A stretch of DNA of 64,000 bases from Candidatus Vecturithrix granuli (GTDB lineage: Bacteria; Moduliflexota; Moduliflexia; Moduliflexales; Moduliflexaceae): assembly GCA_000739535.1 (NCBI GenBank), contig DF820467.1, positions 1-64,000 of the forward strand. The letters run 5' to 3'. The number at the start of each line of letters is the position of its first letter. Within the stretch, counting starts at the first letter, position 1. The position numbers and the translations under genes are program-made. Below are positions 42,250 to 60,627 of the stretch, one piece after another. The notes under the pieces are model-generated. The model did no database searches and had not been told where the DNA came from. It saw only the letters and a program-made list of their open reading frames with translations.

Positions 42250-43212
42250 TTATTCAACAATCGTAGCGGCCTGCAGAATATTGTACGGGATATTGATCCC
42301 TAATTTCTCCGCAGTGCTGACATTCAGCACAAACTTGGGATCGGGATCCATTTTGATGGGTACCTCATTGATGATTTTCCCATTTACAAGCACCTCAACC
42401 ACCGATTCCGCCAGCAGATGCCCCATAATCGTTTCATCGGCAACAAACCCTCCCAACGCGCCAGCGTTCACCGCAATGACAAGGAAAGAGAAGACGGGAG
42501 TATGCCCGGCCGCCTTAACAATGTTTGCCGCATAGTCATTGAGGAGATTGGCTCCGATAATTACGGCAGAGACTTTGTCACGATACGCTTCTACCGCGGC
42601 AATACTCTCAGCTTCTGTCGCACACACTTGCTCATAGTAGGTGATGCCAAGTTGTTTACAAACGGTTTGCGTCGCAGTCCGATCAAGCGGTGTGCTGGCA
42701 TGCCCCTCTTGAAGTAACAGCAACACAGAATCCAGATTCGGCAGAATTGCCTGAAAGATGTCGAATTGTTTCTCCACAGGAACATAGTACGTTACCCCCG
42801 TAATATTCCCCTCCGGAGCCTCCAGATTCTTTACCACCCCGAGCAGGCCAGGATGGTTCACACCCGCGATAAAAGTTGGAATAACAGGAGGATGGGCGAT
42901 CAACCATTGGGATCCATTACTCCGCATCACAATCATGCCATCCTTTTCCCTTTCAAATCGGGCAATAAGCTCACTCATGGCCTCCACATCCGGAACAGTT
43001 TGGAGCTCGAGATCGACATCCGGGACAAGTTCCATGATCTTCGCGCGAAAAGCCTCTTCGATTTTGATTGCCTGGTTAGACTCCCCCGGCCAGGTGATGC
43101 CTAATTTTAACGGGGCGGCCAGGGCAACTGTGTTACTGACTGCTAATACAACAATGATGACCATTGCGACACTTTTCATGACTCTCATACACATGTCTCC
43201 TTGTTCTTCCAT
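42250..43212 (-). CDS. PF04392-type ABC substrate-binding protein, divergent member
   Basis: About 312-320 residues: signal peptide (ending TVALA), then an ABC_sub_bind two-lobe fold with VPVEKQFDIFQAILPNLDSV and DETIMGHLLAESVVEVLVNG. It is the most diverged of the nine and ends NIPYNILQAATIVE, the usual family ending, without the YEGKQVIRK tail of the others. Two good starts exist: 43212 (AGGAG, spacing 7) and 43188 (AAGGAG, spacing 8). Placed between two MCP genes, with no transporter genes. Confidence 0.88.
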   Translation of the reverse strand: MEEQGDMCMRVMKSVAMVIIVVLAVSNTVALAAPLKLGITWPGESNQAIKIEEAFRAKIMELVPDVDLELQTVPDVEAMSELIARFEREKDGMIVMRSNGSQWLIAHPPVIPTFIAGVNHPGLLGVVKNLEAPEGNITGVTYYVPVEKQFDIFQAILPNLDSVLLLLQEGHASTPLDRTATQTVCKQLGITYYEQVCATEAESIAAVEAYRDKVSAVIIGANLLNDYAANIVKAAGHTPVFSFLVIAVNAGALGGFVADETIMGHLLAESVVEVLVNGKIINEVPIKMDPDPKFVLNVSTAEKLGINIPYNILQAATIVE

Positions 43213-43322
43213 TTCAATTCTCCTTTCATAAATACACCGCTATACTTACAAAAGGAACAACCGATAATTAGGGGTTTAACAACATTCTGTTCCAACCTCA
43301 CGATGGGTTTGATATTTTAAAA

Positions 43323-43351
43323 TTATTCTGTCCTGTGATCATATTCGTCAA
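43323..43351 (-). promoter_or_regulatory. Promoter-like element upstream of divergent SBP
   Basis: On the minus strand TTGACG (43351-43346) followed after 17-18 bases by GAATAA/AATAAT. About 110 bp before the SBP start. Confidence 0.35.
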
Positions 43352-43466
43352 GAGTGATACGATATTTTTTTAAAACCCATGAGAGTATTCTATCAGAAAA
43401 CCAATAGAAAGATTGGAAATTCCACTACGATGATACCATCATGCTCCTTAAAAAATCTCAAAAACA

Positions 43467-45911
43467 TCAAAATCGTTCAAACTTGCCATCAATGTCATCA
43501 GCATGATCGCGAAGGGGTTTAGGGGATGAATCTGCAGGCTCAGCGTGGGTCTCTTCACCTTTCACCTTCCTGATAGGCGATCGCGTCTGCTGCTTTGATT
43601 GTTCAGAACGGGATGATGTTTTCTGATGCATGGCTTTTAACTCCTTTAGCTGAAAAGATTCCTCAATGGTAAAAAAGGCAATGGCGTGTTGGAGTTGTTG
43701 GGCCTGATTCACAAGTTGCTCGGCGGCTGAAGCGGTCTCCTCGGCGATCGTGGAGTTTTGCTGGGTTACGCTGTCTAATTCTTGAATAGCGCGGTTAATT
43801 TGTTCTGCGCCGACATGCTGCTCATGGCTGGCTGCACTGATGTCCAACACCAGTTCGGTGGTTCTACGAATACTGGGCACAAGCGTGGCTAACATGGCTC
43901 CGGCCTTTTCGGAGATGTCAAGACTGGAAGACGCTAATTGATTGATTTCTTCGGCCGCTTTTTTGGTCACGTCGGATAATTGCCGCACTTCGGAGGCAAC
44001 CACTGAAAAGGCTTTGCCGTGATCCTGAGCGCGCGCCGCTTCAATAGTGGCATTCAGTGAGAGCAAGCGCGTCTGGTTGGCAATGTCTTCGATAATGGCG
44101 ATTTTTTGCGCAATCTGCTGCATGGCTTTCACGGTTTCAGTCACCACTCGCCCTGTTTCTTCGGCATACTGCGCTGATTGTACCGCAATTTTTTCTGTCT
44201 CGCGGGCATTATCGGCATTCTGGCGGATATTCGCCGCCATTTCTTCCATGGAGCTGGAGCTTTCCTCCATCGAAGCCGCCTGTTCCGATGATCCATTCGA
44301 CAACTGTTCCGCACCGGAACTCAATTCCTGGCTGATGGTAACCATAGTATTCGCAGTTTCTTTGACATTCGCGACAACTGATTGTAAATGCTGGATCATC
44401 GCGTTTAAGGCTTGCATCAGGGTATCCTGCGCCGAACGTTCCTCCAGAGTCACAGTTAAATCGCCCTCAGACATTTTTTGAGCCAGACTGGTGATGGCGT
44501 TCATGGCGTCAATCAACTGGTTCAGATTCTCTTTCAGGGTGTTAAAGTCGCCTTGATACTCCCCGCTGATTTTAGGCGGGATGGTGCCTTTTGCTACCTG
44601 ATCGATAATCGTAGCCGCAGTGCTGATCGGTGCAGCAAATGCATCAACAACCTCATTGATTCCCATCACCAGATCGCGCCAGCCGCCAGCCATGTTTGCT
44701 ACGTCGCCGCGCACATCCAACTTGCCCAGACGAATCGCTTGAATAAGGGTGCTCACTGTTTGCAGAACATCGGTGAGTCTGGCAACCATTCCCTCTAAAG
44801 CTTCCATCAAGCGATCATGCTCTGATCGCTTACGAACCTCTACCGTCAGATTGCCGGCGGAAATCTGTTCAGCCAAATTTGTAATCTGCGTCATCGTATC
44901 AATCAATTCATTCAAATTGTGCCTGGTGATATTAAAATCGCCCTGATACTCAGCGGTGATCTTGTCAGGAATGTCACCTATTGAAATCCGAGCGAGTGCC
45001 GCTGATGTGACGGTGATGGGGTCGACAAAGGCTTCAATCAAGTTATTCACCCCTCCAATCAAGTCGCGCCAACTGCCGCTATAGCTTTCGATTTCGCCGC
45101 GCGCTGTCAGTCGGCCTTCCTGAATCGCCTGGATCAGACCTTGTAAATCCTGGAGAACCTGCCGAATCGTGGTTTGCATAGTTTGAAACGCACTGGCTAA
45201 AGCTCCGATTTCATCGCGCTGACGAATCTGCAAGGTCTGATTAAAATCGCCAGCAACAATGGCCTTGGCTCCATTTGCCAACGCTACCACCGGATTCACA
45301 ATCAACTTCTTCCCCATGAGGTATGCTAAAAGGAGTAAGACCACGAAAATGATTAGAGCAGCCCAACCCACCTTCACTAAATAGGCCTGCCGCTGCTGAA
45401 ACATGGTGATTTTGGGCAGTGAGGCTCCGATAAGCCAATCCCAGGTCTCGAAATACCGGTACGCGGTGAAATGGCCGATCCCTCCAAGGGCATAATCGCG
45501 CGTGCCGGATTTTTGACTGACCATCTGCTCAATCACCTCAGGACTGAATGCTTGTTGATAGAGCTGCTCGTTACTTTGCGAGGCTTTCGACTGCAAGAGC
45601 ACTTTTTGCTCTTTGATCGCGAGTACATAATACTCTTCGGTCTGCGTTTCCGCTTCAGCCTGAAGTTGCTGCAAAATCTCAGTCTGCGCTTGTTGGACGT
45701 ACGCAGCAATACCAGTCACGCCGGACTCCTCTAACAGTTTGATGGTGGCTTCAATTTTTTCAATCTGCCTCGCTAATTTCAGCGAGAGAAGTTCGGTATT
45801 TAACCCGTAAATAATCGTGTTAATCACCCCGGTGCCGATCAGCACCATCAACACCACCAAAATTAATAACAGCAAACCTATAAATAGAGAGAGTTTCATT
45901 TGAATTTTCAT
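43467..45911 (-). CDS. MCP with small Cache sensor and about seven HAMP units
   Basis: About 814 residues from MKIQMKLS. A membrane helix, a short periplasmic Cache-like domain of about 150 residues (FTAYRYFETWDWLIGASLP), a second helix, one canonical HAMP and about six more HAMP-like units follow. The signalling domain is almost identical to its paralogues ([19 protein letters not shown]). The tail ends KFERF, again fitting the CheR-tether pattern. The N-terminal half is closest to the 58987-60627 MCP. The first in-frame codon at 45971 adds 20 unlikely residues. Confidence 0.92.
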   Translation of the reverse strand: MKIQMKLSLFIGLLLLILVVLMVLIGTGVINTIIYGLNTELLSLKLARQIEKIEATIKLLEESGVTGIAAYVQQAQTEILQQLQAEAETQTEEYYVLAIKEQKVLLQSKASQSNEQLYQQAFSPEVIEQMVSQKSGTRDYALGGIGHFTAYRYFETWDWLIGASLPKITMFQQRQAYLVKVGWAALIIFVVLLLLAYLMGKKLIVNPVVALANGAKAIVAGDFNQTLQIRQRDEIGALASAFQTMQTTIRQVLQDLQGLIQAIQEGRLTARGEIESYSGSWRDLIGGVNNLIEAFVDPITVTSAALARISIGDIPDKITAEYQGDFNITRHNLNELIDTMTQITNLAEQISAGNLTVEVRKRSEHDRLMEALEGMVARLTDVLQTVSTLIQAIRLGKLDVRGDVANMAGGWRDLVMGINEVVDAFAAPISTAATIIDQVAKGTIPPKISGEYQGDFNTLKENLNQLIDAMNAITSLAQKMSEGDLTVTLEERSAQDTLMQALNAMIQHLQSVVANVKETANTMVTISQELSSGAEQLSNGSSEQAASMEESSSSMEEMAANIRQNADNARETEKIAVQSAQYAEETGRVVTETVKAMQQIAQKIAIIEDIANQTRLLSLNATIEAARAQDHGKAFSVVASEVRQLSDVTKKAAEEINQLASSSLDISEKAGAMLATLVPSIRRTTELVLDISAASHEQHVGAEQINRAIQELDSVTQQNSTIAEETASAAEQLVNQAQQLQHAIAFFTIEESFQLKELKAMHQKTSSRSEQSKQQTRSPIRKVKGEETHAEPADSSPKPLRDHADDIDGKFERF

Positions 45912-46002
45912 AGCTGTCAACAAAATGCACAGATAACCCGGATCTTGCAGATGTTTTGGCACGATCTGCAAGACCAGAGGTCATCTATATGTCCTTATGC
46001 GC

Positions 46003-47013
46003 TTATTTGCGGATAACATCTTTGCCTTCGTAATCGTTAAAAATCACATTCGCAAGCTTTAAGGCATCCAATGACAATGTAATACCCATGAAATCAGCAG
46101 TTTTGCGGTTTATAGCAACCAGCGTTTTGCGCGGATATTCGGCTTTGATCGACTGAATGGGTTCGCCTTTCAGAATGCGCGCCGCCATTTCAGCTAATTG
46201 CAGCGCGACATCATCGGTATCAACCGCAAAGGCGCATAACACTCCGGATTGGACTGTCGGTACCCAAAAGGTGACATAGGGTTTCTTGAGGCGTTCGCGC
46301 TGCCACTGAGCCACCTCTACATTTCGATCCGGAATAGTCCCATCGCGTTTGAGATAGGGCCAGGCTAAAACGACCAACCAGCCGACTTCGGGATCCTCAT
46401 TATACTTCAGCAACGCCGCTTGCCAGTCTTCATAGTGGGTCGTGTCTTCAATCGCTTTCAAGGGAACATCCAGGCGTTTGAGTGCATCCAAGACTTCCTC
46501 TTTTGGAAATATGACGCGTTGCTTATTTTCAAAAAAGACCGCCTGTTGTCCCGGTTTCAACGGCGCAATCGTGTGTAACAGCTTCAAACTATTATACACG
46601 GTATCTTTGTGTCCCGTATATACACCTGTGATGTTAGCGGTCGGAATACCGTCCGGACCAACATACGGGGCAGTGCCCCAATACGAAACGGTAGGTACGC
46701 CCAATTCATGCAATTTTGCTGTGACCCCGGTTTCACCGCTATACTCAATCACCACATCCGGCGCGAGCTGCGCCACCTGCTCTGGCCAGTCTGCCGGTCT
46801 TGGCGCCTCAAAAGAAACCAGTTTGAGGTTTGTGTTTTCTTGAAATCCCGCCTGCGCCAATCCAGCGAGCACGTGTTGTTTCATGGTTGTTTTGGCAGGC
46901 TCTGATGTGTATTCCACCAGCACCACAGTTTTCATCTCTGCTGTGAATCCAGCATTCGCCAGAAAACCCAAACAGCAAATCATTGCGATCATAATTCTCA
47001 TTAACCACCTCAT
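46003..47013 (-). CDS. PF04392-type ABC substrate-binding protein with YEGK tail
   Basis: About 336 residues from MRWLMRIM (GGAGG eight bases upstream; the longer frame to 47106 is rejected). Signal peptide ending GFTA, then the ABC_sub_bind fold: VVIEYSGETGVTAKL, HYEDWQAALLKYNEDPEVGW, LCAFAVDTDDVALQLAEMAARIL and INRKTADFMGI. It ends YEGKDVIRK. A hairpin (AACAGCAGG / CCTGCCGTT region, 47043-47072) lies upstream. Sits between two MCP genes. Confidence 0.9.
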   Translation of the reverse strand: MRWLMRIMIAMICCLGFLANAGFTAEMKTVVLVEYTSEPAKTTMKQHVLAGLAQAGFQENTNLKLVSFEAPRPADWPEQVAQLAPDVVIEYSGETGVTAKLHELGVPTVSYWGTAPYVGPDGIPTANITGVYTGHKDTVYNSLKLLHTIAPLKPGQQAVFFENKQRVIFPKEEVLDALKRLDVPLKAIEDTTHYEDWQAALLKYNEDPEVGWLVVLAWPYLKRDGTIPDRNVEVAQWQRERLKKPYVTFWVPTVQSGVLCAFAVDTDDVALQLAEMAARILKGEPIQSIKAEYPRKTLVAINRKTADFMGITLSLDALKLANVIFNDYEGKDVIRK

Positions 47014-47165
47014 AACACAATCCTCCGAGTCTGTAAAACCTGAACAGCAGGGAAAACCATTTCCTGCCGTTCGGTTTCGAGCCATAATGTAAATTTCATC
47101 AGACAACTTTTACATGATGTTTGTATAATCCCGTTTTTTGAATTAAGCAAGAATTTTTATAAAAA

Positions 47166-47200
47166 TTATTTTCGAATGACGTCTTTGCCTTCGTACCCAT
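47166..47200 (-). pseudogene. 3' remnant of an SBP gene
   Basis: Just past the MCP stop (47224), a different frame encodes DGYEGKDVIRK followed by TAA. This is the C-terminal tail of the SBP at 46003 (DYEGKDVIRK) with different third codon positions. Nothing SBP-like precedes it. It appears to be the leftover end of an SBP gene replaced or deleted by recombination with the MCP end. Confidence 0.65.
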
Positions 47201-47223
47201 CACTGGTCTGCGATGACACAACA

Positions 47224-49488
47224 TCAATAACGCTCAAATTCAGTATCGTACTTATCGGCATTGTCGTGAAAGCTGACATTCTCAGGAGATGCAGCAGATA
47301 AAAATGATGTCTTTTCTTCTTTTGCTCCCCTTTTTTCAGATATTGAGCTTTTCTCTGGCTTTCTCGGATGAGAGATAATGCCATGATTATTCGATAGTTT
47401 CCGGGAAGACTCTGCAATCGTAAAAAAGGCGATCGCGTGTTGGAGTTGTTGGGCCTGATTCACGAGTTGCTCGGCGGCTGAAGCCGTTTCCTCGGCGATG
47501 GTCGAATTTTGCTGGGTCACGCTGTCTAATTCTTGAATAGCGTGGTTAATTTGTTCTGCGCCGGCATTCTGTTCATGACTGGCCGCACTAATCTCTAACA
47601 CCAGTTCGGTGGTTCTCCGGATACTGGGCACGAGCGTGGCTAACATGGTTCCGGCTTTTTCGGAGATGTCGAGACTGGAAGATGCTAATTGATTAATCTC
47701 TTCGGCCGCTTTTTTGGTCACATCAGATAATTGCCGTACTTCGGAGGCAACTACCGAAAAGGCTTTGCCATGGTCCTGGGCGCGCGCCGCTTCAATGGTG
47801 GCATTCAGCGAGAGCAAGCGCGTCTGATTGGCAATGTCTTCGATGATGGCGATTTTTTGCGCAATCTGCTGCATGGCTTTGACGGTTTCAGCCACCACCC
47901 GCCCGGCTTCTTCGGCATACTGCGCTGATTGCACGGCAATTTTTTCTGTCTCGCGGGCATTATCGGCATTCTGACGGATATTCGCAGCCATTTCCTCTAT
48001 GGAGCTGGAACTCTCCTGCATCGAAGCCGCCTGCTCAGAGGCTCCATTTGACAACTGTTCCGCGCTGGCACTCAATTCCTGACTGACAGTCACCATGGTA
48101 TTGGCGGTCTCTTTGACATTCATGACCACCGACTGCAAGTGTTGGATCATGGCGTTCAAGGCTTGCATCAGGGTATCCTGCGCCGATCGTTCCTCAAGGG
48201 TCACAGTTAAATCGCCCTCAGACATTTTTTGAGCCAGACTGGTGATGTCATTCATGGCGTTAATCAACTGGTTCAGGTTCTCTTTCAGCGTGTTAAAGTC
48301 ACCCTGATACTCCCCGGTGATTTTGGGCGGGATACTGCCTTGCGCCACCTGATCAATGATCGTGGCCGCAGTACTGATCGGTTCGACGAAAGCATCGACC
48401 ACAGAATTAACGCCCAACACGAGTTCGCGCCAGCCACCGCCGAAGGCCGTCACATCGCCGCGTGTATTGAGTTGTCCATTTTGAATCCCCTGGCTCAGGG
48501 TTTTCATCGTTTGCAGAACATTCCGGATATCGGCGCCTAAGAGATTCAGGTTATTTTTAATTTTATTGAAATCACCGTTGTAGTTTTCCGTAATTTGTTC
48601 CGGGATATCGCTTTCCGAAAGTCGCTCAATGTAGGTTGCCGTCGTATTAATCGGGGTGACAAGGGCATCAAGCAAATTGTTGATGCCCACGATGAGGTTG
48701 CGCCAACTGCCGGCGTACCCCTCCACATCGCCGCGCGTCGCCAGTTGACCTGCTTGAATCGCCTGGATCAAGCCCTGTAAATCCAGTAGAACTTGTTGAA
48801 TTGTGGTTTGCATGGTCTGAAAAGCACTAGCTAATGCGCCGATTTCATCGCGCTGGCGGATTTGAAAGCTCTGGTCAAAATTGCCGGCCGCAATCCCTTT
48901 TGCGAGGACAAGGAGTTTGTTGATGGGGCGCAGCAACATGCTTTGCAAGATAAAAATCAGAACAAGGAAGATGCTTATATCTAACACCAGAACAATCACC
49001 ACGATGCTGATCACTTCGCGGATTAATTCTTCCTGGAGAAAACGTTGGGTCAGATAGACCTCTACCGTACCTAACGTTTCTTGATCTTTTACGATTGGTT
49101 TCTTGATGAGAATAAACTCATCTGAGATCTCTCCTTGGGTGTCAATAATCTGCCAGTCCTTGTCTCGAATCTTGCCAATGGAAATACTGTTATCATCGGC
49201 TTTTCTGATCAACACGGCATAGATATTGTAATTTCGCATTTCCGAAAGGAGGATCATTTTAATTTCTTCCTTGGCGTAATTCCACATCGGCAAGGCGAGC
49301 GCCTCGGCCAGTTTCTCGGCGGTATCATTCGCCAGCATTCTGAGTTCAACGGTCTTCCGTGTAGAAATTTCATAATATTGATATCCCCCAAAGACCAGGA
49401 GGATCAAGGTAATGAAGGCAATAACGGTTAATCCTATTTTGAGTTGAATCTTGTAAGTTTTTCGTATCCCTGGCAACTGGGTACTCAT
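47224..49488 (-). CDS. MCP with short periplasmic sensor and about six HAMP units
   Basis: About 754 residues. Helix (about 18-38), a periplasmic domain of about 120 residues with [13 protein letters not shown] (a sensor type seen before HAMP in other receptors), a second helix, HAMP plus about five tandem HAMP-like units and a signalling domain nearly identical to the neighbours. The tail ends DTEFERY, and a [17 protein letters not shown]-like segment is shared with the 58987 MCP. ATG 49488 has GAGGAG eight bases upstream and is preferred to 49494. Confidence 0.92.
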
Positions 49489-49532
49489 GATCATAGCTCC
49501 TCAAAAACTTCTTTTTCCATGTTTCCATCGTC

Positions 49533-49573: not shown

Positions 49574-50350
49574 TTATTTATTTTCAGGCACAGCGATGTC
49601 ATATTTCTTGAATATATTATCGCGTGTTCCTTCCGCTATGAGTTTCTTCAGTTCTTCATTAAACTGATCGCGTAATGCTTCTGCATTCGGCCATTTTTTG
49701 CTAAACCCCGCATAAAATTCTCGCACCGGACCAATAGATTTATCAATATAATCCACCCCATCAAGTTCGGGCGAATACATCTTGATAATTCGCGTGCATT
49801 GGGTTTTCGGACAGACCGCCAGGTCAATCCGATTATTAGTTAATTTGGTTAATTGTTGATAATCAACTGTCTCTGACGCCGGGATAGCATCGGTTTTATT
49901 GAATTTTTTCTGCTGTAGCGCCTCCATAAACGTACTGCCGTAATAATAGCCGTCAACATACCCGATCCGATAGTCTTTCACGTCTTCCAGCATGTTCCAG
50001 GTAATATTATCGGATTTTCGTTTAAAAAATACGACCTCGATGTAGATGATCCCGTCACTAAAAAAAAGCTCTTTTTCCCGTTCAGGATTCTTTGAAAAAG
50101 TGAAGAGCATAGCGGCTTTCCCGCTCGCAGCCGTCTCGTATGCCCGATTCAACGGCAGCAGTTTGACGTTAGGCTCAAAGTTCATTCGTTTCAACGCTTC
50201 GACAACAATTTCATAGCTCGCCCCGGTGACGTTGCCATCCTTATCCAGGTAATTGTAAGGAGCAAATTCCTGACACACCACAGGCAATTCTTCTGCCAAC
50301 ACCATCCAAGGGACAAACAACAATAAAATACATAACCCTATCTTTTTCAT
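49574..50350 (-). CDS. SBP_bac_3-type periplasmic binding protein
   Basis: 258 residues with a clear signal peptide (MKKIGLCILLLFVPWMVLA). CQEFAPYNYLDKDGNVTGASYEI, LLPLNRAYETAASGKA, FTFSKNPEREKELFFSD and YRIGYVDGYYYG match the amino-acid-type SBP family. Its nearest relative here is the 38330 protein. It is directly upstream of the MCP 47224-49488, again with no transporter subunits. GGAGATG precedes the ATG. Confidence 0.88.
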   Translation of the reverse strand: MKKIGLCILLLFVPWMVLAEELPVVCQEFAPYNYLDKDGNVTGASYEIVVEALKRMNFEPNVKLLPLNRAYETAASGKAAMLFTFSKNPEREKELFFSDGIIYIEVVFFKRKSDNITWNMLEDVKDYRIGYVDGYYYGSTFMEALQQKKFNKTDAIPASETVDYQQLTKLTNNRIDLAVCPKTQCTRIIKMYSPELDGVDYIDKSIGPVREFYAGFSKKWPNAEALRDQFNEELKKLIAEGTRDNIFKKYDIAVPENK

Positions 50351-51840: not shown

Positions 51841-51869
51841 GTATTGTAACCATTAAATTCAGATGTCAA
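51841..51869 (-). promoter_or_regulatory. C-tract TTGACAT promoter, copy 2
   Basis: On the minus strand a C8 tract runs into TTGACA (51869-51864), a 17-base spacer and CAATAC (51846-51841); TACAAT overlaps. About 110 bp before SBP member 1. Confidence 0.55.
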
Positions 51870-51922
51870 GGGGGGGGACAAAAAAATATCGTAACATTGA
51901 AATTTTTTTGACCCCCGGGTTA

Positions 51923-52933
51923 TTACTTCCGAATGACTTGCTTGCCTTCGTAGTCGTCATAGATCACATTGGCTAAATTCAACACGTCCAGTGAGAACAC
52001 AATCCCCAAATTCGTGGCGGTTTTACGGTTCAGGGAAATACTCACTTTCTGCGGGTATTCGGCTTTGATCGACTGAATCGGTTCCCCTCGCAAAACACGT
52101 GCCGCCATCCGCCCAGCCTGTTCCCCCAAGACATCCAGATCGAGACCAAATCCACATAACGCCCCATCACGGACTGTCGTTTCCCAATACGTGACCATCG
52201 GCTTCTTCAAATGCTCCCGCTCCCAGGGGAACATCTCTGTGAATATGTCCACAGGGCTTCCATCTCGTTTCCTCATTGGTCCTGTTCCTCTTAAAATCCA
52301 GCCGACTTCCGGATCGTCATTATACTGGAGCACCGCTTGCTGCCAATCTTCATAAATGGTGGCATCAACCACTGCTTTGAGTGGGATCTCTAAGCGTTGC
52401 AGCGCCTCAACCACGTCTGCTTTTGGGATCAAGGCGACTTCCGGAATATCCAGAAAGACGGCTTGCTGGCCCGGCTTGAGCGGCGCGACTTTCTGGAGAA
52501 ACTTGTAACTGTTATACACAAAATCCGGTAAGTTCGAGTAGATGCCCGTCACATTCGCGGTGGGGACGCCTTCCGGATTGACATCGCGTTCAACGCCATT
52601 GACCGTGATGATCGAGAGAGAAAGCTCTTTTACCGCCGCCACAACATGGCCGAACTCACTGGTATTGACGACCACATCCGGCGCAGCTTCCTTCACCTGA
52701 GCGACTATTTGCGCTGGGTCGGTGTTTCCTAACACCAGCATTTGCATGCCGGTCAGATTGCGTTGTTCCTCAAACCCCGCCTCTGCCAGTCCTTTCAGCA
52801 CGTACTCTGGCATAGATTCGGCTGAGCGTGAGGACAAGATGATGACTTTTTTCAATTCCGCCGTGAACCCGATGTTGACGAATATCCATAGCAACCCAAC
52901 CATGGCCATACTGACCCACACGATGCGTTTCAT
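51923..52933 (-). CDS. PF04392-type SBP, tandem array member 2
   Basis: About 336 residues from MKRIVWVSM; the frame extends to 52984 but the added residues are not signal-like. Signal peptide ending GFTA. VVVNTSEFGHVVAAVKEL, IYEDWQQAVLQYNDDPEVGW, WEREHLKKPMVTYWE and CGFGLDLDVLGEQAGRM follow. Tail DDYEGKQVIRK. Close to member 3 in the first lobe. GGAG lies about 11 bases from ATG. Confidence 0.9.
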   Translation of the reverse strand: MKRIVWVSMAMVGLLWIFVNIGFTAELKKVIILSSRSAESMPEYVLKGLAEAGFEEQRNLTGMQMLVLGNTDPAQIVAQVKEAAPDVVVNTSEFGHVVAAVKELSLSIITVNGVERDVNPEGVPTANVTGIYSNLPDFVYNSYKFLQKVAPLKPGQQAVFLDIPEVALIPKADVVEALQRLEIPLKAVVDATIYEDWQQAVLQYNDDPEVGWILRGTGPMRKRDGSPVDIFTEMFPWEREHLKKPMVTYWETTVRDGALCGFGLDLDVLGEQAGRMAARVLRGEPIQSIKAEYPQKVSISLNRKTATNLGIVFSLDVLNLANVIYDDYEGKQVIRK

Positions 52934-52949
52934 ACCGTTACACTCCTGG

Positions 52950-53006
52950 CCTTGCCCAACATGAACAATGTGAGAGATTATCATTACATCGTTTGTTTGG
53001 TAAGCA
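52950..53006 (-). promoter_or_regulatory. Leader palindrome of SBP member 2
   Basis: CTTGCCCAACATGAACAATG on the left pairs imperfectly with CATCGTTTGTTTGGTAAG on the right. Same position and layout as the other leader palindromes of the array. Confidence 0.5.
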
Positions 53007-53055
53007 TCAAATATGATACAGCATTATGCAGAACCATTAACCTGATACCTGTCAC

Positions 53056-53088
53056 AAAAACCAGGTTTCTTGAAGAAACCTGGTTTTT
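53056..53088. terminator. Intrinsic terminator between SBP members 3 and 2
   Basis: Arms AAAAACCAGGTTTC (53056-53069) and GAAACCTGGTTTTT (53075-53088). It lies downstream of the promoter-like box at 53157-53185, so it could attenuate member 2 transcription as well as end member 3 transcripts. Confidence 0.8.
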
Positions 53089-53156
53089 AGCCATGTCAAT
53101 TATTATGAATAATGCTGTAATACGGAGAGAAAGAAATTCGACTCACTTTAATCATT

Positions 53157-53185
53157 GGGATTATATTAAAGAAAAGAAATATCAA
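53157..53185 (-). promoter_or_regulatory. C-tract promoter-like box, copy 3
   Basis: On the minus strand CCCCCCTCC then TTGATA (53185-53180) and, after 16-17 bases, TAATCC. One base off the TTGACA of its relatives. Confidence 0.4.
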
Positions 53186-53238
53186 GGAGGGGGGACGAAA
53201 AAAATTATCGGAACGTTGAGATTTTTCTTGCCCCCAGT

Positions 53239-54249
53239 TTATTTCTTCCGAATGACTTGTTTGCCTTCGTAGTCATCATAAATGACATTCGCCAATTTTA
53301 AAACTTCCATTGAAAACACGATCCCTATATTCGTGGCAGTTTTCCGGTTCAAGGCAATACTGACCTTGTGCGGATATTCAGCTTTGATCGTGTTGATTGG
53401 TTCTCCTTGTAACACGCGCGCGGCCAGTTTCCCGGCTTGCGCGGCCAGTGCATCCAGATCAATGCAAAATCCACATAACAAGCCCATCTGGACAGTAAAT
53501 TCCCAATAAGATATCGTCGGTTTTTTCAAGTGTTCCCGCATCCAGGGGAGGACCTCGGTTAGGATATCCACGCGACTCCCATCCCGTTTTCTCACTGGCG
53601 CCAAAAACAAGATCCAGCCGACTTCGATATCTTCGTTATACTGAAGAATCGCCTGCTGCCAATCCTCGTAGATCGTCGTATCCAACGCCGCTTTGAGCGG
53701 GATTTGTAAGCGTTGCAGCGCATCAACGACTACCGCTTTCGGGATTAAAGCAACCTCCGGAATTTCCAGAAGGACCGCTTTTTGTCCCGACTCGAGCGGC
53801 GCGACTTTCTGTAAAAACTTGTAACTGTTGTACGCCATATCCGGTAGAGTGGCGTATGCCCCGGTCACATTCGCCGTGGGGATGCCCTCAGAATTCACAT
53901 AGGGTTCAACTCCAAGGGCTGTGATGATAGGAATGGAGAGTCCTTTCAAGGCCGTGACAAACTGTCCGAATTCATGAACATTGATAACGATATCCGGCGC
54001 AACTTCCTTGACCTGCGAGACTAGTTGCACGGGATCGGTGATTCCTGATACCATCACCAGTGTACTCGTCAGATTTTTCTGTTCCACAAACCCCGCCTGT
54101 TCCAATCCTTTCAGCGTTTGTTGCACCATCGACTCTGTCGCAGGTGAATATACAATCATCACTTTTTTCAGCTCCGCGGCGAATCCGATGTTAGCGAATA
54201 ATCCTATCACGACGATCATGCTTACGATAATTCTCACAATGCTTTTCAT
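53239..54249 (-). CDS. PF04392-type SBP, tandem array member 3
   Basis: 336 residues, signal peptide ending GFAA. IVINVHEFGQFVTALKGL, IYEDWQQAILQYNEDIEVGW, WMREHLKKPTISYWE and CGFCIDLDALAAQAGKL follow, and it ends DDYEGKQVIRKK. The first lobe is near member 2. No clear leader palindrome is seen here, and the ribosome site is weak (GAGTG), unlike most other members. Confidence 0.9.
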   Translation of the reverse strand: MKSIVRIIVSMIVVIGLFANIGFAAELKKVMIVYSPATESMVQQTLKGLEQAGFVEQKNLTSTLVMVSGITDPVQLVSQVKEVAPDIVINVHEFGQFVTALKGLSIPIITALGVEPYVNSEGIPTANVTGAYATLPDMAYNSYKFLQKVAPLESGQKAVLLEIPEVALIPKAVVVDALQRLQIPLKAALDTTIYEDWQQAILQYNEDIEVGWILFLAPVRKRDGSRVDILTEVLPWMREHLKKPTISYWEFTVQMGLLCGFCIDLDALAAQAGKLAARVLQGEPINTIKAEYPHKVSIALNRKTATNIGIVFSMEVLKLANVIYDDYEGKQVIRKK

Positions 54250-54338
54250 GATGCTACACTCATTGCCTCAACAGCCGAAATGTCAAATGATATGCTCATC
54301 ACTACATCCCCTTCGGAGGTATTGATTATTATGGGCGA

Positions 54339-54367
54339 ATTTTTGAACCGATCCTTCACATTGTCAA
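54339..54367 (-). promoter_or_regulatory. TTGACA promoter-like box, copy 4
   Basis: On the minus strand CCCTTGACA (54367-54362 for the hexamer), a 17-base spacer and AAAAAT. The C-tract is short. Upstream of SBP member 3. Confidence 0.4.
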
Positions 54368-54390
54368 GGGAATTCAATTGAACCGCGCCC

Positions 54391-55404
54391 CTATTTCTTC
54401 CGAATGACTTGCTTGCCTTCGTAGTCATCATAGATGACATTGGCGAGGTTCAACACATCCAGTGAGAACACAATGCCTAACTTCGTCGCGGTTTTGCGGT
54501 TCAGGGCAATACTGACCTTGCGGGGATATTCGGCCTTGATCGTTCGTATATCTTCGCCTTGCAGCACGCGCGCGACCATTTCACCACATTGCACGCCGAC
54601 CTCCGCGGTATCAATGCCAAAAGCGCAGAGGGCGCCTGCTTGTACAGAGAACTCCCATTGGGTAATCGTCGGCTTTTTGAGATGCTCGCGCTCCCAGGGA
54701 TAAATTTCAGCCACCGTGTTCACCGCGCTGCCGTCTCGCCTATGTCTCGGGGTTGAGCGCAAGATCCATCCGACATCGGGATCGTCATTATATTGCAGAA
54801 TCGCTTGCTGCCAATCTTCGTACACTGCCGTATTGACAATGGCCTTGAGTGGGATCTGTAACCGTTGCAGGGCATCGATCACCGTTTCTTTGGGAAGGAT
54901 CGTTGACTCCGGATTATCCAGGAAAACCACCTGTTGTCCTGGCTTCAGGGGAGCAACTTTCTGCAAGAATTTATAGCTATTATACACCAGATCCGGTAAA
55001 TTGGTGTAGATCCCGGTAATATTGCCGGTGGGCATGCCGTCGGCCCCGACAAACGATTCCACATTGACCCGCGCAATCACTGGAATTGACAGTTTATTTA
55101 AAGCGGCAAAGAGAGTTCCGTATCCAGGGAGGGCTAAGATCACATCGGGCGCGATTTCCTGAATCTGGACAATCAGTGGCGCCGGGTCGCCTTCTTTCGG
55201 GGGCACCGCAATTCTTTTGATAATGACATTTTGTTGATCGATCAGTCCCGCCTGTGTCAGGCCATTCAACATTTGTTCCTGAATCGTTTGGTTGGTCGGG
55301 AGATCCAGCACCACGAGTGTTTTGAGATCCGCCGCGAATCCGAGATTGGCGAACATTCCCAGCAACACCACCAACAGCACACTCATTGTCACCATGCGTT
55401 TCAT
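54391..55404 (-). CDS. PF04392-type SBP, tandem array member 4
   Basis: 337 residues, signal peptide ending GFAA. VILALPGYGTLFAALNKL, VYEDWQQAILQYNDDPDVGW, WEREHLKKPTITQWE and LCAFGIDTAEVGVQCGEM follow, with tail DDYEGKQVIRKK. Close to member 1 along its whole length, although members 2 and 3 lie between; duplications were therefore not simply stepwise. AGGAG is present nine bases before ATG. Confidence 0.9.
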   Translation of the reverse strand: MKRMVTMSVLLVVLLGMFANLGFAADLKTLVVLDLPTNQTIQEQMLNGLTQAGLIDQQNVIIKRIAVPPKEGDPAPLIVQIQEIAPDVILALPGYGTLFAALNKLSIPVIARVNVESFVGADGMPTGNITGIYTNLPDLVYNSYKFLQKVAPLKPGQQVVFLDNPESTILPKETVIDALQRLQIPLKAIVNTAVYEDWQQAILQYNDDPDVGWILRSTPRHRRDGSAVNTVAEIYPWEREHLKKPTITQWEFSVQAGALCAFGIDTAEVGVQCGEMVARVLQGEDIRTIKAEYPRKVSIALNRKTATKLGIVFSLDVLNLANVIYDDYEGKQVIRKK

Positions 55405-55420
55405 AGCGTTACGCTCCTGA

Positions 55421-55475
55421 CCGGCCCAACGTGAGCGATGTGATGAATGGTCATCGGATCGCTCGTTGGGCAGGC
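55421..55475 (-). promoter_or_regulatory. Leader palindrome of SBP member 4
   Basis: CCGGCCCAACGTGAGCGAT (55421-55439) pairs with ATCGCTCGTTGGGCAGG (55458-55474), with two extra bases on one side. The ends read GCCCAAC and GTTGGGC on the coding strand. The AGGAG follows directly. Confidence 0.65.
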
Positions 55476-55514
55476 GTCAAAAGATAATAATATGAGGAAA
55501 TCTCATTACTTGAA

Positions 55515-55543
55515 GCATTGCGATCTTCACATTGAGATGTCAA
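55515..55543 (-). promoter_or_regulatory. C-tract TTGACAT promoter, copy 5
   Basis: On the minus strand CCCCCTTGACAT (hexamer 55543-55538), 17-base spacer, CAATGC (55520-55515). Upstream of SBP member 4. Confidence 0.5.
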
Positions 55544-55566
55544 GGGGGAGCAGGAAAAAAATGTCA

Positions 55567-56574
55567 TTATTTTCGAATCACCTGCTTGCCTTCGTAGTCA
55601 TCATAGATGACATTGGCTAATTTCAGGACGTCTGTTGAGAATACAATGCCTAAGTTCGTAGCAGTTTTGCGGTTCAGGGCAATCCTGATTTTTTGCGGAT
55701 ATTCAGCCTTGATGGACTGAATCGATTCCCCTTGCAGGACGCGCGCGGCCATCCGTCCGAATTGCATACTCATCGCATGGATATCCATCCCAAACGCACA
55801 TAACGTGCCGAGCTGAACCGGCTCTTCCCAATACGTAACGGTCGGTTTTTGGAAATATTCCCGCTGCCAGGGATAGAGCTCGGCCTTCATGTCCAAACGA
55901 CTGCCATCGCGTTTGCGCGTTGGCGATGACCGTAAAATCCAGCCTACCTCAGGATCGTCGCTATACTGAAGCGCCGCGGCTTGCCAATCCTCATACACGG
56001 TGGCATTGACAACGGCTTTCAGGGGGATCTGTAAGCGTTGCAATGCGTCCATGACCTTCGCTTTGGGGATGGGGGCAAATTCCGGATTATCCAGCAAGAC
56101 CACTGCTTGCCCCGCTTTCAGCGGCGCGACTTTCCGTAAAAACTTGTAACTGTTATAGAACATATCGTGGAGCGTACTATACATGCCGGTAATATTGGCG
56201 GTGGGGATCCCTTCGGCATTCACATAGGGTTCCACATTCAGCCGCGTCACCACCGGAAAGGAGAGTCCCTTCAGCGCCGCCAACGCATCGGGAAATTCCA
56301 CGGCGTTCAGTACCACATCTGGCTGGGCTTCCTTGACGCGCGATATCAGTTGCGGAATATCATCCGAGGTAGAGATGATGATTTCCTGGAACGTGATATT
56401 TTCTTGAGGGACAAACCCGGCCTGTTCTAACCCTTTCAGGATATATTCGGTCATCGGCGGCATCATATCTGTCCGTAAGGAGACGACGGTTTTCATCTCC
56501 GCTGCGAACCCGATGTTCTCGAACATTCCAAACAACACAACCAGCAACACACTCATTGTCACCATGCGTTTCAT
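55567..56574 (-). CDS. PF04392-type SBP, tandem array member 5
   Basis: About 335 residues from MKRMVTMS (AGGAG nine bases upstream; the frame to 56628 crosses the leader palindrome). Signal peptide ending GFAA. VVLNAVEFPDALAALKGL, VYEDWQAAALQYSDDPEVGW, WQREYFQKPTVTYWE and LCAFGMDIHAMSMQFGRM follow, with tail DDYEGKQVIRK. The only member without a C-tract promoter box in front: just the 23-bp palindrome separates it from member 6. Confidence 0.9.
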   Translation of the reverse strand: MKRMVTMSVLLVVLFGMFENIGFAAEMKTVVSLRTDMMPPMTEYILKGLEQAGFVPQENITFQEIIISTSDDIPQLISRVKEAQPDVVLNAVEFPDALAALKGLSFPVVTRLNVEPYVNAEGIPTANITGMYSTLHDMFYNSYKFLRKVAPLKAGQAVVLLDNPEFAPIPKAKVMDALQRLQIPLKAVVNATVYEDWQAAALQYSDDPEVGWILRSSPTRKRDGSRLDMKAELYPWQREYFQKPTVTYWEEPVQLGTLCAFGMDIHAMSMQFGRMAARVLQGESIQSIKAEYPQKIRIALNRKTATNLGIVFSTDVLKLANVIYDDYEGKQVIRK

Positions 56575-56588
56575 AGCGTTACGCTCCT

Positions 56589-56644
56589 GGCCGGTCCAAC
56601 GAGCGTGGTGAGGGCTTGGCATCACCACGCTCGTTGGACCGGCC
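56589..56644 (-). promoter_or_regulatory. Perfect 23-bp leader palindrome of SBP member 5
   Basis: Left arm 56589-56611 and right arm 56622-56644 are exact complements (core GGTCCAACGAGCGTGGTGA) around a 10-nt loop. It lies between the member 6 stop and the member 5 AGGAG. No T-tract. Confidence 0.8.
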
Positions 56645-56652
56645 TCTTAATG

Positions 56653-57660
56653 TTACTTCCGAATCACTTGTTTGCCCTCGTAATCTTCATAGATCACATT
56701 GGCTAAACTCAACACATCCATTGAGAACACAATACCTAAGTTCGTGGCAGTTTTGCGGTTCAGAGAAATATTGATTTTACCGGGATATTCGGCTTTGATC
56801 GTCTGGATATCTTCGCCTTGCAGAATGCGCGCGACCATTCGGCCGCATTGGATGCCCACTGCGCTCGTATCAATGGAAAAACCGCATAATGTGCCGGCCT
56901 GCACGGCAAATTCCCAATATGCAATCGTAGGTTTTTTCAGGTGTTCCCGTTCCCAGGGAAAAAATTCTGTAGGGATATTCACGCTGGTTCCATCGCGTTT
57001 TTTCGTCGGAGAAGATCGTAAAATCCAACCAACCTCTGGATCGTCGTTATATTGTAGGACAGCTTGCTGCCAATCCTCATATACGGTCACATTCACTACC
57101 GCTTTGAGAGGAATATTTAATCGTTGCAATGCATCACCGATCACCTCTTTTGGCGTCGCTGAAAATTCCGGATTATCGAGATAGACGACTTGCTGGCCCG
57201 GCTGCAGCGGGGCGACTTTTTGCAGAAACTTGTAACTATGATAGACCATATCCTGCATCGTTGTGTAGACCCCGGTAATGTTTGCAGTGGGGACACCTTC
57301 GACATCAACGTAAGGTTCAAGATTGATCCTGGTTACGACAGGGATAGGGAGATCACGCAACGCCTCAAGAATCTGGGGATATTCAACCGCATTCAAGATG
57401 ACGTCCGGCGCAGTCTCCTGCACGTATGTTACGATTTGGGCTGGGTCGCTGTCACGTGAAACACGCGCCTGAAGGATAGTTACATTGTGTTGATCCACCA
57501 AACCAGCCTGTTCCAGTCCTTGTAACATGTGCTCTGTGATCGAGGCGACCATATCGGTGTACAAAAAGAGAACGTTTTTCATCTCTGAGGCCCTCGCAAC
57601 ATTGGCGAATAACCCCATTAAAACGGCCATAAGCACAATTATCTTCGCAATACTTTTCAT
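56653..57660 (-). CDS. PF04392-type SBP, tandem array member 6
   Basis: About 335 residues from MKSIAKII, with GGAGAG in front; the frame to 57747 crosses the leader. Signal peptide ending ARAS. VILNAVEYPQILEALRDL, VYEDWQQAVLQYNDDPEVGW, WEREHLKKPTIAYWE and LCGFSIDTSAVGIQCGRM follow, with tail EDYEGKQVIRK. First lobe near member 5. It may be co-transcribed with member 5. Confidence 0.9.
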   Translation of the reverse strand: MKSIAKIIVLMAVLMGLFANVARASEMKNVLFLYTDMVASITEHMLQGLEQAGLVDQHNVTILQARVSRDSDPAQIVTYVQETAPDVILNAVEYPQILEALRDLPIPVVTRINLEPYVDVEGVPTANITGVYTTMQDMVYHSYKFLQKVAPLQPGQQVVYLDNPEFSATPKEVIGDALQRLNIPLKAVVNVTVYEDWQQAVLQYNDDPEVGWILRSSPTKKRDGTSVNIPTEFFPWEREHLKKPTIAYWEFAVQAGTLCGFSIDTSAVGIQCGRMVARILQGEDIQTIKAEYPGKINISLNRKTATNLGIVFSMDVLSLANVIYEDYEGKQVIRK

Positions 57661-57674
57661 AGCAATACTCTCCT

Positions 57675-57729
57675 GGCTTGCAATACACCAACGATTTGCT
57701 GAATTCAACACATCGTTCGTTTGGCAGGC
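57675..57729 (-). promoter_or_regulatory. Leader palindrome of SBP member 6
   Basis: GGCTTGCAATACACCAACGAT on the left and ATCGTTCGTTTGGCAGGC on the right pair with several mismatches around TTGAATTCA. Same place as the other leaders. Confidence 0.5.
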
Positions 57730-57771
57730 ATGAAAATTGATGATCATGAAGGAAATTTCAGCTTATTATCA

Positions 57772-57800
57772 TTTTTGAGTTCATATCACAGAAATGTCAA
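57772..57800 (-). promoter_or_regulatory. C-tract TTGACAT promoter-like box, copy 6
   Basis: On the minus strand CCCCCTCTTGACAT (hexamer 57800-57795); the -10 (CAAAAA) is weak. Upstream of SBP member 6. Confidence 0.4.
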
Positions 57801-57869
57801 GAGGGGGAATTTATCGTAAACGTGATTTTCTCTGTGATACTACCTGGAACCTTCCACCCTCCCACATCA

Positions 57870-58886
57870 TTACTTCCGAATGACCTGCTTGCCTTCGTAG
57901 TCGTCATAGATGACGTTCGCTAACTTCAACACATCCAGCGAGAATACAATCCCTAAGTTCATGGCGGTTTTGCGGTTCAGAGCAATAATGACGTTACGCG
58001 GATATTCGGCCTTGATGGTGCTGATCGGCTCCCCTTGTAAGACGCGCGCCGCCATCTCGCCGCATTGCATCCCCACGCCATTCAGATCAAAGCTAAATCC
58101 ACACAATACTCCTGCCTGGACGGCATTTTCCAGGTGGGAAATCGAAGGTTTTTTCAAATTTTCTCGCATCCAGGGATACATCTCTTTCTGGGCATCGACG
58201 CTGCTTCCATCGCGTTTGTTTGTGGGACCGCTCCCTTGCAAAATCCACCCGACCTCCGGATCATCGTTATACTTCAGGATCGCCTCCTGCCACGCTTCGT
58301 AAATCGCGCCGTCGTCCACCACCGCTTTAACCGGAATTTGTAACCGTTGCAGCGCATCAAGCACCTCGGCTTTCGAGATGACCAATTGCTGCTGGTGATT
58401 ATCCAGATAAACCACCTGTTGCCCGGCTTTGAGCGGCGCAACTTTCTGCAAAAACTTGTAACTGTTGTACATCAGATCCTGAAGCTTGGTGTACACCCCG
58501 GACACATTCCCAATCGGCATCCCGCTTGTATCCACGAAGGATTCAACTGCCGTCATTGTGATGACGGGAACCGAGAATTGTTTTAATCCCTGGATGACAT
58601 TCGTGAAGGCTGTGAAACTTAAGACAACATCCGGTGCCTCGGCCTTTACCTGGGCAATTAACTGTCCAGGATCGGTTGCGCCTGACACTTCGATCCACGC
58701 GATCATCACATTTTTTTGTTCGACAAAATCTCTCTCTTCCAAACTGATTACTGCTTTCTGCGCCATCGGCTTTGTTCGACCAGTATGCAAAAACAGAATT
58801 TTTTTCATCTCTGCGGCAAACCCAATATTCGCGAACATCCCTACTAACACAACCAGCAGCACACTCAACTTTACCATGCGTTTCAT
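57870..58886 (-). CDS. PF04392-type SBP, tandem array member 7
   Basis: 338 residues, signal peptide ending GFAA. VVLSFTAFTNVIQGLKQF, IYEAWQEAILKYNDDPEVGW, WMRENLKKPSISHLE and LCGFSFDLNGVGMQCGEM follow, with tail DDYEGKQVIRK. First array member in transcription order, 100 bp downstream of the MCP 58987-60627, with no promoter box visible between, so it may be read through from the MCP gene. AGGAG lies nine bases before ATG. Confidence 0.9.
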   Translation of the reverse strand: MKRMVKLSVLLVVLVGMFANIGFAAEMKKILFLHTGRTKPMAQKAVISLEERDFVEQKNVMIAWIEVSGATDPGQLIAQVKAEAPDVVLSFTAFTNVIQGLKQFSVPVITMTAVESFVDTSGMPIGNVSGVYTKLQDLMYNSYKFLQKVAPLKAGQQVVYLDNHQQQLVISKAEVLDALQRLQIPVKAVVDDGAIYEAWQEAILKYNDDPEVGWILQGSGPTNKRDGSSVDAQKEMYPWMRENLKKPSISHLENAVQAGVLCGFSFDLNGVGMQCGEMAARVLQGEPISTIKAEYPRNVIIALNRKTAMNLGIVFSLDVLKLANVIYDDYEGKQVIRK

Positions 58887-58901
58887 AGCTCTACGCTCCT
58901 T

Positions 58902-58955
58902 GCCTGCAAAGCGTCAACGATCTGCTGAACTCAGCGCACCGTTCGTTTGGCAGGC
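58902..58955 (-). promoter_or_regulatory. Leader palindrome of SBP member 7
   Basis: GCCTGCAAAGCGTCAACGAT at left and CCGTTCGTTTGGCAGGC at right, imperfect, with an inner perfect GCTGA / TCAGC hairpin. Lies between the MCP stop and the SBP ribosome site. Confidence 0.55.
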
Positions 58956-58986
58956 GTGAAAAATGATGATAATAGATGACATCCCA

Positions 58987-60627
58987 TCAATAGCGTTCAA
59001 ACTCAGTATCATATTTATCGACATGATCGTCAAGGCTTAACGTTTTTGGAGATGAAGATGCCCTCTTTTCTTCTTTTGCCCCCCGTTTTTCAGACAGTGG
59101 TTTTTCCTCTGGCTTTCCCGGATGAGGGGCGATCCCATGATTATTCGCTGGCGTCCGGGAAGACTCTGCAATCGTAAAAAAAGCAATAGCGTTCTGGAGT
59201 TGGCGTGCTTGATTTGCCAATTCTTCGGCTGATGAAGCCGTTTCCTCTGCGATAATCGTATTCTGCTGGGTGATCTGATCGGCTTGCTGGATGGCCAGAT
59301 TGACCTGGGCTGCGCCGGTATCCTGCTCATGGCTTGCAGTACTGATTTCCTGGATCAATTCAGTAGTTTTTTGGATACTGGGGACGAGCGTGGACAGCAT
59401 CTGCCCTGCTTTCTCCGACACTTCAAGACTGGACATGGCCAGTTGATTGATTTCTTCCGCCGCTTTTTTGGTCACATCGGATAATTGCCGCACTTCAGCG
59501 GCCACTACCGAAAACGCCTTCCCATGCTCCTGAGCCCGCGCCGCCTCAATCGTCGCATTCAACGAGAGCATACGGGTCTGACTGGCAATATCCTCAACAA
59601 TGGCGATTTTTTCGGCAATTTGCTGCATGGCTGCCACCGTTGCCGCCACTACACGCCCGGTTTCTTCGGCATACTCTGCTGATTGCACCGCAATCTTTTC
59701 CGTCTCGCGAGCATTATTTGCATTCTGACGGATATTCGCCGCCATTTCTTGCATCGAACTGGAACTCTCTTGCATCGAAGCCGCCTGGCCAGCGGCCCCG
59801 GTTGACAATTGTTCCGATCGGGCATTTAACTCCTGACTGATGGTCACAATCGCGTTGGCGGTATCTCTGATGTTCACCACCACCTCTCGAATGGTTGTTT
59901 GCATTGTTTGAAATGCTTTCGCCAATACCCCGATTTCATCGTGCTTATCCATCTGGAGGGATTGATCTAAATTGCCGGCCGCAATTTGATTGGCGACTTT
60001 TACCAACGTCACCACTGGATTCACAATCAGCTTTTTCCCCATGAGATACGCTAAAAACAATAATACCACAAAGACGATCAGGGAAGTCCAGCCCACGGTC
60101 ACTAAATAGGTCTGACGCTGCCGAAACATGGTGGTTGTAGGCAACGACGCGCTGATGAGCCAATCCCATGCGTCAAAATAGCGGTACACGGCGAAATAGT
60201 TCGCCCCGGCAAGGCTGTATGTCTGTGATCCGGATTTTTGGTTAACCATCTCCTGGATGAGTTCGAAATCGAGATCCTGTTCCACATTCTGCTGAACGTT
60301 TTTCGACTGTAAGAGCAACTGTCGGTCTTTGACGGCGAGCACGTAATACACTTCGGGCTGGGTTTCCACGTCAGCCTGTAATTGCTGGAGAATCTCATTT
60401 TGCGCTTGCTGCACATACGCAGCGATGCCGGTCGCGCCGGAATCTTCTAACAATTTGGCGGCTGTTTCGATTTTTTCAATGCGCGTGTCCAATTTCAGAG
60501 AAAGCAGGTCTGTATTTAACCTGTAAATGATGGCGTTAATCACCCAGGTGCCAATCGCAACCATTAACACCGCCAATAGCAACAACATCGCGCCTATAAA
60601 CACCGACAGTTTCATTTGAATTTTCAT
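58987..60627 (-). CDS. MCP with small Cache sensor and a single HAMP
   Basis: 546 residues from MKIQMKLS. Helix, periplasmic Cache-like domain (FAVYRYFDAWDWLISASLP), helix, one HAMP (LMGKKLIVNPVVTLVKVANQIAAGNLDQ in part) and a signalling domain with [19 protein letters not shown]. The tail ends DTEFERY. The N-terminal half is paralogous to the 43467 MCP and the tail to the 47224 MCP, so it looks like a recombinant without the HAMP array. First gene of the chemosensory block; no clear ribosome site. Confidence 0.92.
   Translation of the reverse strand: MKIQMKLSVFIGAMLLLLAVLMVAIGTWVINAIIYRLNTDLLSLKLDTRIEKIETAAKLLEDSGATGIAAYVQQAQNEILQQLQADVETQPEVYYVLAVKDRQLLLQSKNVQQNVEQDLDFELIQEMVNQKSGSQTYSLAGANYFAVYRYFDAWDWLISASLPTTTMFRQRQTYLVTVGWTSLIVFVVLLFLAYLMGKKLIVNPVVTLVKVANQIAAGNLDQSLQMDKHDEIGVLAKAFQTMQTTIREVVVNIRDTANAIVTISQELNARSEQLSTGAAGQAASMQESSSSMQEMAANIRQNANNARETEKIAVQSAEYAEETGRVVAATVAAMQQIAEKIAIVEDIASQTRMLSLNATIEAARAQEHGKAFSVVAAEVRQLSDVTKKAAEEINQLAMSSLEVSEKAGQMLSTLVPSIQKTTELIQEISTASHEQDTGAAQVNLAIQQADQITQQNTIIAEETASSAEELANQARQLQNAIAFFTIAESSRTPANNHGIAPHPGKPEEKPLSEKRGAKEEKRASSSPKTLSLDDHVDKYDTEFERY

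Follow-up and report, generated by a model that had tools for sequence, protein, structure and literature searches.

A tandem array of PF04392 binding-protein genes beside chemoreceptor genes in Candidatus Vecturithrix granuli as a likely SBP-dependent chemosensory module

The window considered here is the whole stretch of 64,000 nucleotides that was analysed from Candidatus Vecturithrix granuli, and coordinates refer to it unless another locus is named. Between 38.3 and 60.6 kb it holds nine PF04392 substrate-binding protein (SBP) genes, two SBP_bac_3 genes and four MCP genes, and the sole plus-strand member of the set is one of the SBP_bac_3 genes. Pfam recognises PF04392 in all nine ORFs claimed for it (32.7-85.1 bits, cut-off 25.9). 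It places SBP_bac_3 at 49574-50350 (-) and 38330-39070 (+), and MCPsignal in four minus-strand ORFs, 39159, 43467, 47224 and 58987. Read along the minus strand, the order is MCP 58987, the PF04392 genes 57870, 56653, 55567, 54391, 53239, 51923 and 50720, and then SBP_bac_3 gene 49574, MCP 47224, SBP 46003, MCP 43467, SBP 42250 and MCP 39159. A sequence-only reading of this DNA had described seven PF04392 genes in unbroken tandem (50720-58886) and a second SBP_bac_3 gene facing the block; Pfam agrees with both, and the facing gene lies just outside 42250-60627. The same reading had two more PF04392 genes and one SBP_bac_3 gene alternate with four MCPs on one strand, which Pfam bears out except that the interval 42250-60627 holds three MCPs, the fourth (39159-42053) being outside it.

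The first gene of the block (58987-60627, minus strand, as are all genes of the block given below) encodes an MCP of 546 aa with a sCache-like periplasmic domain, HAMP, MCPsignal and a C-terminal EFERY tail. The tandem SBPs begin 100 nt after it with 57870-58886 and continue with 56653-57660 (ORF listed to 57747), 55567-56574 (start moved from 56628), 54391-55404, 53239-54249, 51923-52933 (start moved from 52984) and 50720-51730, the last of which is 80% identical to the fourth. The starts of the second, third and sixth are to be shifted downstream to an MK(R/S) signal-peptide start, which also favours a downstream start for SBP 46003-47013 and MCP 43467-45911. The SBP_bac_3 (PF00497) gene, 49574-50350, stands between the array and MCP 47224-49494, whose small periplasmic domain has no Pfam family and is accompanied by HAMP, HAMP_2 repeats, MCPsignal and an EFERY tail. 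Between this MCP and SBP 46003 lies the remnant of an array-type SBP 3' end (47166-47224, minus strand, coding for DGYEGKDVIRK). SBP 46003-47013 is directly before MCP 43467-45911, which has the sCache subtype of MCP 58987, HAMP_2 repeats and a FERF tail. SBP 42250-43212 and MCP 39159-42053, a dCache_1 receptor, complete the block, and the plus-strand SBP_bac_3 gene 38330-39070 faces it. The gap between SBP 42250 and MCP 39159 (42054-42249) holds an almost perfect inverted repeat (GTAGCGCGAAACTCCAGTTT ... AAACTGGAGTTTCGCGCTAC), which may be a REP-like or small mobile element.

The seven tandem genes are true paralogues, with 56-80% identity. SBP 46003, at 44-50% identity to them, joins the seven in an array clade of eight PF04392 proteins of the island, and 42250 belongs to a divergent lineage outside the duplicated set. 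The array genes have dN well below dS and are thus under purifying selection, with dS near saturation in most pairs. Membership in PF04392 and the type I fold hold for the array SBPs by Pfam and predicted structure. For example, the model of SBP 54391 (mean pLDDT 90.5) has the PF04392 structures 3lkv, 6hni and 3lft as its top Foldseek matches, with TorT-TorS and LuxP-LuxQ ranking lower.

The divergence is unevenly distributed over the structure. As a proxy for the ligand cleft, in place of measured contacts, we took the loops after strand C-termini in the predicted SBP structure. Within the array clade, identity is 0.35 in these cleft-proxy loops, 0.67 in the loops before strands, at the opposite ends, and 0.60 in the rest, and in a circular-shift control (n=312) only the unshifted arrangement reached this contrast. 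The order is reversed in three other PF04392 pairs, whose cleft-proxy loops are the most conserved of the three classes (cleft/opposite/rest 0.64/0.41/0.53, 0.63/0.61/0.52 and 0.71/0.59/0.57). The array SBPs also share a C-terminal tail of 15 residues (322-336; NVIYDDYEGKQVIRK and variants), 0.91 identical across them and absent in the other PF04392 proteins compared, including SBP 42250. In this model-based comparison, a variable cleft on a conserved body and tail is what would be expected of SBPs with different ligands and a common partner, and it falls short of proof. As part of the sensory explanation that we favour below, the array probably grew through tandem duplication accompanied by cleft divergence.

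Six array genes, together with the SBP of a second locus on contig C15, share a leader hairpin that ends just before the ribosome-binding site. On the minus strand of the window it occupies 58887-58960 before SBP 57870, 57661-57738 before 56653, 56575-56652 before 55567 (z-score -10), 55405-55480 before 54391, 52934-53012 before 51923 and 51731-51806 before 50720, the last two being weak folds on their own; SBP 53239 is without it. Nine of its 23 pairs are changed on both sides, and the covariation score exceeds those of all 500 shuffles. A covariance model applied to the whole genome found the hairpin at these seven places only, plus opposite-strand echoes of the same sites. Identity among the leaders is 0.66, versus 0.43 at fourfold-degenerate sites of the genes.

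Farther upstream, 139 nt before the ATG of 54391, there is a block with a C-run and TTGACA (55538-55588, minus strand), and equivalent minus-strand blocks have TTGACA (or TTGATA) starting at 57800, 51869, 53185, 50648 and 54367. The C-run and TTGACA stand at 139-143 nt before the ATG of 56653, 54391, 50720 and the C15 SBP. A general promoter scan gave results near chance (34 found vs 25.5 expected). Because of the shared hairpin, the conservation of the leaders and the fixed distance of the C-run/TTGACA block, most copies are probably expressed from their own leaders. A single operon of seven SBPs is disfavoured, since a block or leader stands upstream of most individual copies. Between the block and the leader of SBP 51923 (52985-53238), an insert of ~110 nt, bounded by CAGCATTAT...ATAATGCTG and containing a hairpin, looks like a small MITE.

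All island MCPs combine MCPsignal and HAMP with a membrane-anchored periplasmic domain. The ligand-binding domain of MCP 58987 is 67% identical to that of MCP 43467 and 61% to that of the C15 MCP, which scores 27.1 bits against Cache_3-Cache_2 (cut-off 27.7). The Foldseek matches of the MCP 58987 sensor domain, obtained with a low-confidence model, are Cache 5g4y and TlpB 3ub. With a profile built on this sCache domain, three MCPs and one histidine kinase were detected in the whole genome. All three MCPs are flanked by array-clade SBPs, and the kinase has no such SBP. Another feature of the receptors is that the cytoplasmic halves of MCPs 39159, 43467 and 47224 (39159-49494) have 87-90% DNA identity over stretches and their sensor domains are unrelated, a pattern that suggests gene conversion or domain swapping. 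The sCache domain of the island MCPs is also present in one of five adjacent histidine kinase genes at L155:1090-12495.

The locus on C15 has the order SBP remnant (a frameshifted 3' part of an array-type gene), MCP, SBP, and the SBP after the MCP is the sister of 57870 (tree support 98/98). This locus, the flanking of all three sCache MCPs and the further remnant before SBP 46003 show that array-clade SBPs are paired with this kind of receptor more than once. PF04392 occurs at 17 places in the genome (8.38 Mb in 21 contigs, with a listed contamination of 10.75%), and the island accounts for nine. Elsewhere in the genome, PF04392 genes neighbour a dCache MCP (L031), a sCache MCP (L034) and histidine kinases (L028, L032); one has a TonB receptor next to it and then a SpoIIE-type phosphatase (L030), another is fused to a PAS-kinase (L035), and two of the eight (L029, L033) have no sensor neighbour. 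The fusion, PF04392-PAS-histidine kinase-receiver at L035:6917-10015, lies beside a DctP-type SBP and another PAS-kinase.

Two sets of loci were read for PF04392 contexts in other genomes, with neighbour labels that in both rest on our own HMMs built from few sequences. After an initial scan of the genome collection with the array alignment had found no relative, the first census compared the array profile with 385 genomes; 40 neighbourhoods were read, and 38 loci had the SBP gene. At 7/38 loci (five families) an MCP gene lay on the same strand, no more than two genes away, and one of these loci (L077) is a full che operon in the order SBP-MCP-CheA-CheB-CheY. The remaining loci had a kinase or regulator (9/38), a TonB receptor only (7/38), a COG4120/COG1101 transporter (8/38) or none of these (7/38), and a transporter and a sensor occurred at the same locus in 0/38. 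The second set was obtained with MCP-adjacent SBPs as the query and is thus sensor-biased and partly overlaps the first; its 38 loci, in Elusimicrobiota, Omnitrophota, Myxococcota, Zixiibacteriota and others, comprise 9 with an MCP, 21 with a kinase or regulator, 3 with a TonB receptor only, 1 with a transporter and 4 with none. The earlier statement that PF04392 proteins normally travel with transporter genes is therefore true of a part only (8/38 and 1/38 loci). The search for the SBP-MCP alternation in related genomes, which the sequence-only reading had proposed as a check, had a divided outcome: PF04392-MCP adjacency recurs in other bacteria, and the tandem array was not seen in the three order-level relatives available. 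At L101:2961-9709 in another genome there are five PF04392 ORFs in near tandem without an adjoining MCP, one of them 607 aa long and possibly a fusion or a wrong start. In literature naming PF04392 or COG2984, nothing usable on chemotaxis was found.

Taken with the genetic linkage of SBP and MCP genes in the island and at C15, these contexts lead us to consider it likely that the island is an SBP-dependent chemosensory module, in which the array SBPs dock onto the neighbouring MCPs. The eight array-clade proteins would be exported, presumably to the periplasm, and would bind different small ligands in their diversified clefts. Once liganded, an SBP would dock through the common body and C-terminal tail on the sCache domains of the neighbouring MCPs, so that one receptor type would be read through many interchangeable SBPs. 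The leader hairpin that most copies have to themselves probably coordinates their expression. The MCPs would relay the signal to one of the eight CheAs encoded elsewhere; the genome has about 66 MCPs and 8 CheAs (8 H-kinase_dim matches), so a CheA pathway is present in it, and none of the CheAs adjoins the island. FliG_C was not found in the genome, and the output is therefore probably not flagellar. It may be gliding, as in filaments of KSB3 (Moduliflexota), which has over 60 MCPs and glides without flagella (PMC4312070).

The foremost alternative is that the SBPs serve transport and use in common one or several promiscuous ABC permeases whose genes lie elsewhere, with the MCPs adjacent by chance or through co-regulation of uptake and taxis. 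Its attractions are the 100 PF02653 matches in the genome, the PF04392 fold, which is that of transporter SBPs (3lkv, 3lft, 6hni), and the COG4120/COG1101 genes at 8/38 homologous loci. PF04392 importers use a COG4120 permease as partner, and the genome has no such permease of the TrpY/COG4120 type: with a genuine COG4120 query from G030 the best match was 35 bits, in the range of RbsC-type proteins, compared with 251 bits (blastp) between that query and a true homologue in G025. The array SBPs thus look like orphans. As the sequence-only reading had noted, no permease, ATPase, CheA or CheW gene is in view; a scan of the main ORFs (>=150 aa) over 28180-63929 revealed none of them, nor a COG1101 ATPase in the operon. 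Outside the island, the genome's other eight PF04392 genes all lack an adjacent permease on the same strand, and the transporter and sensor contexts never coincided in the first census. Nor does a transporter close beyond the window edge fit: the nearest found there is a complete Opp-type system at ~65-73 kb of the contig with its own SBP_bac_5. We therefore regard transport as an unlikely function of the array.

Sensing could also proceed through partners other than the neighbouring MCPs, namely the CHASE4 histidine kinase at 62145-63929, the sCache kinase of C21 or TonB-linked receptors. Histidine kinases are indeed the commoner PF04392 neighbours elsewhere (9/38 and 21/38 loci), and the sCache type of the array also occurs in a kinase. 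But the repeated unit at two loci is an SBP with a sCache MCP; an unrelated ferredoxin-like gene separates the CHASE4 kinase from the island, and nothing corresponding to that kinase is present at the second locus. These points make this option quite improbable. It is very improbable that the proteins have an extracellular role unrelated to sensing, for instance in adhesion or in scavenging of ligands, and that the array is otherwise a passive tandem amplification. In favour of this, tandem genes expand easily, the structural relative CD0873 has adhesive properties according to its structure entry title, and the near-tandem L101 array is not beside MCPs. Against it, the island genes have dN well below dS with divergence focused on the cleft, accompany one MCP subtype at two loci and have a specific leader hairpin.

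The idea that the SBPs are a repertoire of ligand adaptors for the MCPs, put forward in the sequence-only reading, thus draws support from the lack of a cognate permease, the second SBP-MCP-SBP locus, the sCache association in 3/3 cases, the hypervariable cleft on a conserved body and tail, and the PF04392-MCP adjacency elsewhere. Neither of the two findings that the sequence-only reading named as refuting came up: no matching permease was found, and SBP-MCP adjacency is present in other bacteria. The idea is weakened by the absence of the array in the three relatives and by the two PF04392 genes elsewhere in the genome that have no sensor neighbour, and Cache-type MCPs could bind ligands themselves, which would count against SBP adaptors. 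In Pseudomonas, three SBPs encoded near two kinases failed to activate them, so SBP-sensor adjacency is no proof of function (PMC11113362).

Several known systems resemble the island in part. LuxP-LuxQ and TorT-TorS, both among the Foldseek matches, likewise use a type I binding-protein fold as a sensor subunit, with a single SBP and a histidine kinase as partner. TrpXYZ-type PF04392 ABC importers (3lft with L-Trp; CD0873) share the Pfam family and fold, whereas the island is without the COG4120 permease partner or an ATPase gene and its SBPs have the extra C-terminal tail. MBP-Tar, RBP/GBP-Trg, DPP-Tap and LsrB-Tsr of E. coli have in common with the island, for which this would hold by inference, a chemoreceptor stimulated by a liganded SBP; the SBPs of E. 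coli chemotaxis also serve transporters, and their receptors have 4-helix-bundle domains rather than sCache. The archaeal BasB-BasT and CosB-CosT show a similar pairing of SBP and transducer; to our knowledge, each transducer there has a single binding protein, with no array of tandem paralogues like that of the island. The Bug/TctC proteins of Bordetella are a different family from PF04392, and we know of no tandem array of them beside MCPs. In Halobacterium salinarum, BasB-BasT and CosB-CosT carry out binding-protein-mediated chemotaxis, and transducers co-purify with putative binding proteins, two more besides BasB and CosB (PMC3579733). All four E. coli receptors with a periplasmic domain can be activated by a liganded SBP, receptor domains are bound by SBPs from at least 13 families, and Bug/TctC of Bordetella is an expanded SBP family of 79 members, some of them in signalling (PMC9602780). 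By analogy, the island would work like the SBP-dependent systems of Halobacterium and E. coli. The principle is already known, and what is new is the tandem, cleft-diversified repertoire, which departs from those systems in how many adaptors there are for each receptor and in its family, tail and hairpin.

More tentatively, and with the balance of our judgement somewhat against it, the island may be a combinatorial receptor system, in which a single conserved type of MCP sensor domain would work with an array of SBP cassettes. The array could be expanded, each SBP would have a single purpose, and most would carry a cis-regulatory hairpin of their own; sensory range would then evolve through duplication and diversification of a soluble adaptor and not of the receptor. 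If the module is real, chemosensory range would be widened modularly by multiplying soluble adaptors instead of receptors. It would also supply a naturally occurring set of related SBPs that presumably differ in ligand but have one docking surface in common, which could help to map SBP signalling to Cache-type receptors. Much of PF04392, now labelled 'ABC transporter substrate binding', is probably sensory and not for transport, and recognising this would correct many annotations.

A further recurrent arrangement of PF04392 genes combines a TonB-dependent receptor, the SBP and a membrane sensor, which may be a kinase, an MCP or a SpoIIE phosphatase (L028, L030, L038, L071-L110 and L111-L150). 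This trio suggests a relay from the outer membrane to the periplasm and on to the sensor.
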